Notes under the pieces: generated by a model | Told to the model about the DNA's origin: nothing | What the model saw: only the letters and a program-made list of their open reading frames with translations | Database searches by the model: none | NCBI GenBank assembly: GCA_029856155.1 | Contig: JAHQWL010000092.1 | Span: forward strand, 21,489 to 85,488 | Source: Promethearchaeia archaeon | Lineage (GTDB): Archaea; Asgardarchaeota; Lokiarchaeia; Sigyniarchaeales; SOKP01 | Direction of reading: 5' to 3' | Length of the DNA stretch: 64,000 nt | Translations under genes and position numbers: made by a program | Shown: positions 61,329-63,899 of the stretch, in pieces | Numbering within the stretch: the stretch's first letter is position 1 | Layout of the letters: the number at the start of each line of letters is the position of its first letter

Positions 61329-63899
61329 TTAGTCATCTTCTTGTGGCATCTCTATAGGTTTAGTTCCAGTTTTGTCTCCGATAAGTTTTAATATCTCAGA
61401 ACCGAAAACATTTGACAAGATATCATTCATCTCTTTTCCACCCAAATAGCTTTGACAGCCTAAATGAAGTTTATGGAAGGTGTCACTAAATTGATCTTCA
61501 ACATCCTTAATGAAATTAATAATTTTATCTTCTAAAGTCGGTGATGGAATCTCATTCAGTAAAAATACTACTTTAAATTCTCTATTTGTAAAAAATCCCC
61601 CCGATAGATGGCCAAGGCTAAATTTTATTGATAATATTTCTCCTACTTTTAATGCATGACTAGCAATATGATCCAATGCAGTGAGAAAACCAGAAAAAAT
61701 AGTATTATCAACATCTTCAGTGGTAAAATTTAACTCATATTGATTAGCACCACTTTCTCGATGCTGAACCAATAATTTCTGTATGTTTTCAATATCTGGA
61801 TCTACGATAAAAGGCTTTGTTAAGAAATTGTAAATATCTTCAGGTGAATTCTTAAGCACTTTAAACAATTTTTTAGGTCTATAGCCATATTCTGGTCCAG
61901 TAGGGTCTTCCCAACTTGGATCATTAATCAGTTCAGTTGCAGCTCGACCACTATTTCTCATTATACCTACTTGTGCCCCGAAAACGATAGCTAAATGATA
62001 CTCAAAAGAAGCTATGCTTCCACCATTAACCCCTATAAGTTTTACCTTATTTGGAACTATACCACATTTCATTATATCATACCAATATTGAATAGGTTCT
62101 CTAATACTGAAATCTTTTCCTTCTGTAAAATGAATTGAAGAATATCTTTTATCTAGTTCAACATGAGCTGGCATATGACTTGGTAAGTAACCTATAGTTC
62201 TTATATTATTAGGATATTTTTCTTGAATATCTCCTACAGTATTGCTAATTCCTGATGTAGTACCACCTGAAATTATGACACCTTTAAAATTATTGAAAGC
62301 ATCAATTAAATTATTATTAAATATCTCCAAATTTCTTTCTATACGCTTATCTGTCCCACCAGCAATAATTACAATAGATTCATCAAATTTTGTTTCCATT
62401 TGTTTCATTTCAGAATCTAATACCAACGTAGATTCATTAATCATTTTATCTGTTTTTTCGATTACATTTGGATGAAAAATCATCCCTAATCGTAGAACTT
62501 GTCTCACTAAACTAATATTTTTTATTTTATCTTCTATTATCTTGAGATTATTTAATGTATCTAGAGTAGTTTCAATCATCCAAATATCGGAACTATATCT
62601 TATTCCTTTTAAATAATAATCTAAAGCGTCATTAATATTTCCAAGAAATAAATTAAATAAACCTACATCAAAAAAAGCCCATGGAGCATCAACCATTACT
62701 TGTATTTGTCTTATTCGTTTTTTTATGGCTTTTTGGATCATATCATAATTTCTTTCAATATGGATTAAATCTCCCGTTTGTTGAATTATTAAGATTAAAT
62801 AATTACCTAATGGATAGGGATCTCCGGGTTTCACTTTCAATGCTTGCTTATAACATTCTAAAGCTTTAGTATAATTTTTTTGACTTTTATAAGTACCTCC
62901 TAATGATGACCATCCATTAGAATCAAAAGGATTTCTTTGAGCTGCTTCTCTTAAATAATTCTGCCCTCGTAAGAATTCATTACCCATAGGGTTTTTTTTA
63001 TATTTTTTATGATGAGATATCCCAAGATCTCTTAAAATCTCTGCTACTTCTAATTCTGACGCTTGTTTAAAGGATTCAGTTTTCATTAATTCGTTCAATA
63101 TTTCAATACTCTTATCCATATCGTTAATTGCCATTGCTAATTTTGCTATTCTATAACCATTCTTAAAATTTTCTTTGTCTGCTTTATATACCATTTCTAA
63201 TCTTTCAATTTCAGATTTGATTTTTTCGTTAGACATATACGTAATTATTGTAGATTTATAATCTCGCATTTTCTTCATAATTTTATTCAATGATTCATCT
63301 TCAATAGTCAACAAAGATTTTACTCGACTGAGTTCTTGGTCATACGGCTTAGGTACTTTAAATTCATACTGATTAAAGACTTTGTATTGATTTGCGGCCC
63401 ATCCATAACTCAAATATGTGCATATTTGAATTTCTGCTTTTAAATTAAAAATTTCGTCTGGTATTTTTAATTCAAGTCTTTCATATAGCTTTAATTCAGG
63501 CATCAGTTGAACAACATAGGTTTGGAAATGTCCTAAAGAAGCACTAATTTCACTTAATTCGGACATTTCATGCCCGTTTACAGTATCAAATAAAAAATTA
63601 TCTCGAATTGCCTCACTAACTGTATTTAATTCATTAATATTGGGCAAAATTATCCGAAATCCACATATATCATTAATTTCTAAAAAAGGAATAGTAATAT
63701 TTGTTTCTGATTTAAATAATTTATTTGCAAAACTAGAAATTTTCTTTACTCTTCCTTGTATGATAAATTCAGATGAATAACCTCTCACGATATTTTTAAG
63801 GACTTTTTTCATGTATTTATGAAATTCTTTGTAAAGAGGTCGTAATTTTTTATATTCATTAATTTGTTCTTCAAAAATTTCGCGTTTTTCTAATTCCAT
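61329..63899 (-). CDS. Three-domain protein: RelA/SpoT-like nucleotidyltransferase, TPR array, SLOG/LSDAT nucleotide-sensor-like domain
   Basis: N-term GRVKKISS...INDICGFRIILP...AEIQICTYLSYGWAANQYKV; TPR NYTKALECYKQALKVKPGDPYPLGNY; C-term IIAGGTDKRIERNLE...GVIISGGTTSGISNTVGD. Confidence 0.7.
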   Translation of the reverse strand: MELEKREIFEEQINEYKKLRPLYKEFHKYMKKVLKNIVRGYSSEFIIQGRVKKISSFANKLFKSETNITIPFLEINDICGFRIILPNINELNTVSEAIRDNFLFDTVNGHEMSELSEISASLGHFQTYVVQLMPELKLYERLELKIPDEIFNLKAEIQICTYLSYGWAANQYKVFNQYEFKVPKPYDQELSRVKSLLTIEDESLNKIMKKMRDYKSTIITYMSNEKIKSEIERLEMVYKADKENFKNGYRIAKLAMAINDMDKSIEILNELMKTESFKQASELEVAEILRDLGISHHKKYKKNPMGNEFLRGQNYLREAAQRNPFDSNGWSSLGGTYKSQKNYTKALECYKQALKVKPGDPYPLGNYLILIIQQTGDLIHIERNYDMIQKAIKKRIRQIQVMVDAPWAFFDVGLFNLFLGNINDALDYYLKGIRYSSDIWMIETTLDTLNNLKIIEDKIKNISLVRQVLRLGMIFHPNVIEKTDKMINESTLVLDSEMKQMETKFDESIVIIAGGTDKRIERNLEIFNNNLIDAFNNFKGVIISGGTTSGISNTVGDIQEKYPNNIRTIGYLPSHMPAHVELDKRYSSIHFTEGKDFSIREPIQYWYDIMKCGIVPNKVKLIGVNGGSIASFEYHLAIVFGAQVGIMRNSGRAATELINDPSWEDPTGPEYGYRPKKLFKVLKNSPEDIYNFLTKPFIVDPDIENIQKLLVQHRESGANQYELNFTTEDVDNTIFSGFLTALDHIASHALKVGEILSIKFSLGHLSGGFFTNREFKVVFLLNEIPSPTLEDKIINFIKDVEDQFSDTFHKLHLGCQSYLGGKEMNDILSNVFGSEILKLIGDKTGTKPIEMPQEDD

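Follow-up and report, generated by a model that had tools for sequence, protein, structure and literature searches.

Locus and gene neighborhood

The window considered here is a stretch of 64,000 nucleotides from a Lokiarchaeal genome (G000). Close to its right edge it contains a gene encoding an 856-aa protein in which a RelA/SpoT synthetase fold is combined with TPRs, a SLOG domain and a C-terminal domain (Table 1). The start codon is ATG at 63899. The window edge coincides with the end of the contig (G000:C92, 85488), 101 bases upstream of this codon, and thus the upstream neighbor of the gene is invisible in its own genome. An independent Lokiarchaeota assembly, LW40_87 (JAHPZE010000028.1), contains a copy of the gene at 97% identity together with an identical set of downstream genes; hence the gene cannot be put down to misassembly. 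The 97% copy was the sole match in a single-protein scan of genome contigs. Both the contig end and the fourth, C-terminal domain (approximately residues 696-845) had been overlooked in the initial annotation.

Table 1. Features of the gene encoding the 856-aa protein (window coordinates)
Feature	Position	Strand	Evidence or comment
RelA/SpoT fold-TPR-SLOG(LSDAT)-C-terminal domain gene, complete, type B	61329..63899	(-)	856 aa; 97% identical copy in LW40_87
Synthetase-fold domain, residues 1-222	63234..63899	(-)	PF04607, RelP/RelQ profile match, residue table, dN/dS
TPR/TPR-S-like helical repeats, residues about 222-490	62430..63236	(-)	Pfam TPR families, AlphaFold model, TPR-S in relatives
SLOG domain, TRPM/LSDAT type, residues 500-695	61815..62402	(-)	PF18171, alignment, structural matches
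Asgard-type C-terminal domain, residues 696-845	61365..61814	(-)	Common to many Loki proteins; predicted secondary structure
Shine-Dalgarno-like GGAGTGA before start codon	about 63910..63916	(-)	Sequence
Last 101 bases ahead of contig end	63900..64000	(-)	Partner gene in the 97%-identical relative lies past this point

Downstream, at 56531-61067 on the same (-) strand, there is a lysine fermentation cluster encoding lysine 2,3-aminomutase, L-erythro-3,5-diaminohexanoate dehydrogenase, 3-keto-5-aminohexanoate cleavage enzyme and 3-aminobutyryl-CoA ammonia lyase, all four above the NCBIfam cut-offs, as well as a methyltransferase. The cluster is largely syntenic in relatives. A role of the 856-aa protein in this operon was considered and dropped, since the cassette occurs at other loci (L035, L036, L039-L043) without the operon and a gap of 262 bp separates the two. 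The (-) strand also encodes a 98-aa cysteine-rich RING-like protein at 56061-56357 (weak match to zf-C3HC4_3, E 0.0019) and a minimal nucleotidyltransferase (Polbeta/MNT-like) at 55524-55925, for which no obvious HEPN partner was seen.

Domain structure of the protein

The N-terminal domain matches RelA_SpoT (PF04607) at residues 49-169 with 38.2 bits (cut-off 27), and the family profile of this domain matches the structures of RelP/RelQ (E 3e-22 to 1e-17) and CapRel (4e-8). No HD hydrolase domain was found in the 856-aa protein, as the initial annotation had stated. The same annotation had recognized synthetase motifs in their usual order. In the comparison with YjbM/RelP the fold proved to be real, and the ATP/Mg (donor-side) residues R50, K52, K60, D77, R82, E156 and Q158 are retained; however, in the segment LGHFQTYVV, read as the third motif, the three G-loop residues Tyr, Ser and His (Y-x-S-x-H) are missing, so that the acceptor side is lost. 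As the GTP-binding G-loop is gone, ordinary (p)ppGpp synthesis by this protein is unlikely. At the same time, the domain is under purifying selection, with dN/dS of 0.05 against L033 and 0.21 against L034, about as low as in the rest of the protein. Retention of the donor residues together with the low dN/dS indicates a domain that is functional but differs from an ordinary (p)ppGpp synthetase.

The central TPRs predicted initially are present: several Pfam TPR families score above cut-off at about residues 310-362, and the AlphaFold model of the protein contains helical repeats at residues from about 222 to 497. In relatives, TPR-S (PF20308) scores just below its cut-off.

The SLOG/LSDAT assignment in the initial annotation also held. 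LSDAT_prok (PF18171) matches residues 509-660 with 25.4 bits, which is equal to the cut-off. Since matches to TPR proteins overwhelmed the fold search with the full-length protein, the SLOG and C-terminal part (residues 500-845) was modelled separately (pLDDT 87.5, pTM 0.81). The best PDB match of this model is the MHR1/2 region of ADPR-bound TRPM2 (E 6e-8), and 49 of the 50 PDB matches listed are TRPM proteins, with TRPM2 and TRPM3/4/7/8 on top; the top matches also include a molybdenum-cofactor carrier protein with a SLOG/LOG-like fold. The SLOG sequence profile by itself produced a weak match to TRPM2 (E 0.42), so the structure search was needed for the TRPM assignment. The predicted structure secures the placement of this domain in the LSDAT/TRPM branch of the SLOG superfamily. 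A GG.I...E motif is invariant in the family alignment; it resembles the GGxGTxxE motif of LOG proteins.

The C-terminal domain has no Pfam match, and a search of its profile against PDB yielded nothing convincing. The same domain terminates many other Loki proteins (L022-L030), whose lengths fall at about 430-450 or 750-790 aa. Its predicted order of elements, beta-beta-alpha-beta-beta-beta-alpha-alpha, suggests a longin/profilin-like fold.

Phylogenetic distribution and two types of family members

Relatives of the 856-aa protein were found in approximately 17-19 of the 228 Asgard genomes. The initial annotation pointed to the general lack of classical alarmone synthetases in archaea. This calls for a correction, as RSH proteins occur sporadically in archaea (Atkinson 2011, PMC3153485) and are present in 18 of the 228 Asgard genomes; thus the RelA/SpoT domain in itself is not unexpected. 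Plasmids and phages contain RelA/SpoT-domain-only relatives, with no RelA/SpoT-TPR-SLOG protein found there, and a search of IMG/VR gave no family member. In G101, a 937-aa open frame reaching the contig edge (L063, 2-2812) begins with a RelA/SpoT domain, and no Pfam family matches its long C-terminal part.

The tree of the TPR and SLOG regions splits the family into two types with support 99/98. Type A proteins are usually about 670 aa long (two are longer), do not have the C-terminal domain, and in nearly all cases retain the synthetase residues including the G-loop GY.S.H; the type A protein of L038 retains only the Tyr. Their synthetase domain resembles the PADLOC phage-defence candidate PDC-S33 (E 8e-18), and, judging by these residues, type A proteins should have pyrophosphokinase activity. 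Type B proteins, including the one in the window, have the C-terminal domain, and in all of them the G-loop is without its Tyr, Ser and His, and the late His on the GTP side is gone as well. The type B synthetase fold either acts on another acceptor or is a pseudo-enzyme, as far as can be judged from its residues. In G117 and G161 an A gene is adjacent to a B gene, the synthetase domain of B being degraded or lost and the enzyme being kept in A. No type A gene was found in the window genome.

An HD-type alarmone hydrolase was found in neither the window genome nor most other carriers; G117 and G161 have one. Absence of the hydrolase would suit a one-way growth-arrest effector, without being proof of it.

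Linkage to TIR genes

A TIR_2 gene is located within 5 kb of the family gene at 12 of 17 loci, the expected number being 0.20. The loci are partly non-independent and represent at least six different genomic settings. TIR genes are scarce in the carrier genomes, most of which have one to seven TIR_2 matches; G161 has 26.

The architectures of the TIR proteins vary. In the 97% relative G119, two genes precede the family gene: the first encodes a secreted protein of 2604 aa that has a TM helix at its C-terminus, and the second (L070, 8579-11077) encodes a protein of 833 aa in which four TM helices are predicted and the C-terminal domain is TIR. In G112, G098 and G148 the neighbor is a single protein with a signal sequence, a beta-helix ectodomain, a TM segment and a TIR domain; such proteins adjoining type B genes are 876-1900 aa long. 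Type A genes of G140, G143, G115, G129 and G145 have TPR-TIR genes approximately 50-67 bp upstream. The G161 locus contains genes for a four-TIR protein and a TM-TIR protein. In G117, LRR and TIR-like (CAP12-type) genes adjoin the paired A and B genes (L038), and these surroundings look like a compact innate-immune-like island. A DUF4062-AAA-TPR (STAND-like) gene is situated there 36 bp upstream of the type A gene (G117:C38, 8108-12097).

The two genes are also lost together: the syntenic site in G111 and G118 retains the 526-aa upstream gene and scraps of the family gene, and the TIR gene is gone. The glutamate at the catalytic position in alpha-C is present in 13 of the 14 aligned TIR domains, including every direct partner aligned.

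A search for an ortholog of the TIR partner in the window's own genome yielded only paralogs with 49-58% identity on other contigs. Other contigs of this genome also encode receptor-shaped TIR proteins (L065, 6517-10302; L067, 9230-11626; L066, 6991-10101; L068, 6610-11646) with a signal sequence, an ectodomain, one predicted TM region and a C-terminal TIR domain; the ectodomains, where scanned, are periplasmic-binding-protein/ANF-like, PKD or beta-helix.

Candidate signalling relay

In the Thoeris system, sensing of ThsB-made cADPR by the SLOG domain of ThsA is established (PMC9503650), and two further papers describe TIR-made cADPR isomers read by the Thoeris SLOG (PMC11204291, PMC7272460). 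The SLOG-type MHR1/2 region of TRPM2 is a reported ADPR site (PMC13143021). Given this TIR-SLOG chemistry, the TRPM2 site and the kept TIR glutamate, the simplest reading is a chain from TIR through an ADPR-type messenger and SLOG to a RelA/SpoT output. The 856-aa protein would thus be a messenger-sensing downstream partner of TIR enzymes in a Thoeris-like relay; we estimate the probability of this at roughly 0.6. Production or sensing of a nucleotide signal in stress or antiviral response had been suggested initially; the TIR partner genes fit that suggestion. Ordinary (p)ppGpp is an unlikely product of the 856-aa protein.

In the proposed relay, a TIR protein would be triggered and would produce an ADP-ribose-type messenger from NAD+; in this lineage it would be a membrane TIR that is either linked to a large surface ectodomain or fused with it. 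This messenger would be bound by the TRPM2-like SLOG domain, the TPRs would transmit the signal or oligomerise, and the N-terminal RelA/SpoT-fold domain would be switched on, or its activity released. It might then add pyrophosphate to a nucleotide or to an RNA 3' end, and growth would be slowed or stopped. The enzyme domain would be intact in type A; in type B the remodelled acceptor pocket would correspond to a different acceptor or to a pseudo-enzyme with a regulatory role, and the C-terminal domain would be an additional interaction module. One such effector may serve several TIR receptors. The domains, the linkage to TIR genes and the joint loss, the kept TIR glutamate and donor-side residues and the purifying selection are observed, and the identity of the messenger, the direction of signalling, the activation, the product and the biological role are inferred. 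Counting against the relay, the TIR partner lies outside the window; no TIR_2 match was found near the family genes of G153 and G162, whose contigs are short, or of G062, where there is none genome-wide; and the flanks of the family genes are mostly housekeeping, with no clear defence islands.

The function of the RelA/SpoT-fold output is the least certain part of the relay. There is not quite an even chance that the type B fold is a pseudo-enzyme binding ATP/Mg or a partner, the protein serving as a scaffold that binds the messenger and has its output in the C-terminal domain; this is compatible with the TIR-SLOG relay, and both can hold. The synthetase domain has lost its G-loop in the window protein, is eroded in the type B protein of L037 and is absent from that of L038, so the enzyme step appears dispensable in some members; it is also gone from the SLOG-CTD proteins of G094/G095, and where A and B coexist the enzyme is kept in A. 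On the other hand, D77, E156 and the other donor/Mg residues are retained in the window protein, L034 and L036, dN/dS of the domain is as low as elsewhere, and a type A partner is absent from the window genome.

Alternatively, the TIR-SLOG relay may be non-immune, with surface receptors reporting nutrients or neighbors and the RelA/SpoT-fold protein providing a stringent-response-like adjustment of growth. The beta-helix, CBM, PKD and periplasmic-binding-protein-like ectodomains do resemble sugar- or solute-binding modules, and the site of the window gene beside the lysine fermentation cluster is retained in G119 and G112. We consider this version unlikely, as the patchy distribution, the joint loss, the TIR/LRR/STAND-like neighbors (G117) and HerA (G161) speak more for a conflict system, and the window genome and most carriers have no HD hydrolase to reset a metabolic signal.

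As the GG...E motif is kept, the SLOG domain could be an enzyme and not a sensor, namely a LOG-like phosphoribohydrolase acting in series with TIR on NAD+ or alarmones. The molybdenum-cofactor carrier protein among the top structural matches points in the same direction. However, the nearest matches are the ligand-binding MHR1/2 regions of TRPM, and the layout of the fusion recalls that of ThsA and similar sensor-effector proteins; this makes an enzymatic role quite improbable. Finally, coincidence or shared mobility without a functional link, which the members without a detected TIR neighbor might suggest, is hard to reconcile with the observed excess of TIR genes in several settings and with varied architectures, the operon-like spacing of about 50 bp in type A and the joint loss.

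Returning to the TIR-SLOG relay, these data suggest an undescribed immune-like pathway from a TIR enzyme via a nucleotide messenger to an alarmone-type enzyme in those archaea that are most closely related to eukaryotes. The survey of Asgard defence systems (PMC11291487) mentions neither Thoeris nor SLOG, and the literature searched (RelA with SLOG, Thoeris or TIR) contains no description of TIR adjoining RelA-TPR-SLOG; priority of this pairing is not established, because the 2015 LSDAT-defining paper and bacterial chromosomes were outside the scope of the search. The full version, a Lokiarchaeal immune pathway in which TIR receptors with diverse ectodomains would signal through an ADPR-type messenger and a TRPM2-like SLOG to a RelA/SpoT-fold enzyme acting on a new acceptor, is speculative and rather doubtful. 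If true, it would mean that the sister lineage of eukaryotes has, within a single system, the architecture of Toll-like receptors, the chemistry of Thoeris and an enzyme of the stringent response. The TIR-SLOG relay itself would, as far as we could find, be the first one whose output is of the RelA/SpoT type. It would also bring TRPM2-like ADP-ribose sensing, together with receptor-shaped TIRs whose NADase glutamate is intact, into Asgard archaea, so that the long-standing question about the origin of eukaryotic TIR signalling and TRPM-type sensing would become testable with recombinant proteins.

Comparison with known systems

The closest parallel is Thoeris, with its two-gene logic, an adjoining TIR gene with the catalytic Glu, and a partner combining SLOG with an enzyme domain. 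In contrast to Thoeris (ThsB TIR with SIR2-SLOG ThsA, or the macro-domain ThsA variant), the output here is a RelA/SpoT fold with TPRs, the SLOG domain is of the TRPM/LSDAT type, and the TIR domains often belong to membrane receptor-like proteins. The 856-aa protein does not contain the ThsA effector domain (SIR2, or macro/TM) and has no match to ThsA models in PADLOC; since this defining domain is absent, the system falls outside Thoeris even though it may work in a similar way.

The small alarmone synthetases RelQ/RelP (YjbM, YwaC) and their relatives with defence or toxic roles (CapRel, FaRel2 and PADLOC PDC-S33) share the fold, the absence of the HD domain and, with most type A proteins, the catalytic residues. 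Unlike them, the family proteins are fused to TPR and SLOG, and the window copy is devoid of the G-loop and the late GTP-side residues. TRPM2, whose MHR1/2 (LSDAT) ADPR sensor is the best PDB match of the SLOG model, differs in having a channel; the identity is about 16%, and the ADPR-type ligand of the family SLOG is a predicted one. The partner TIR genes resemble animal Toll-like receptors in having a signal sequence, a big ectodomain, a single TM segment and a C-terminal TIR domain. This resemblance is an analogy only. Their ectodomains are of the beta-helix, PKD, CBM or PBP type and not LRR, and the NADase glutamate is kept.
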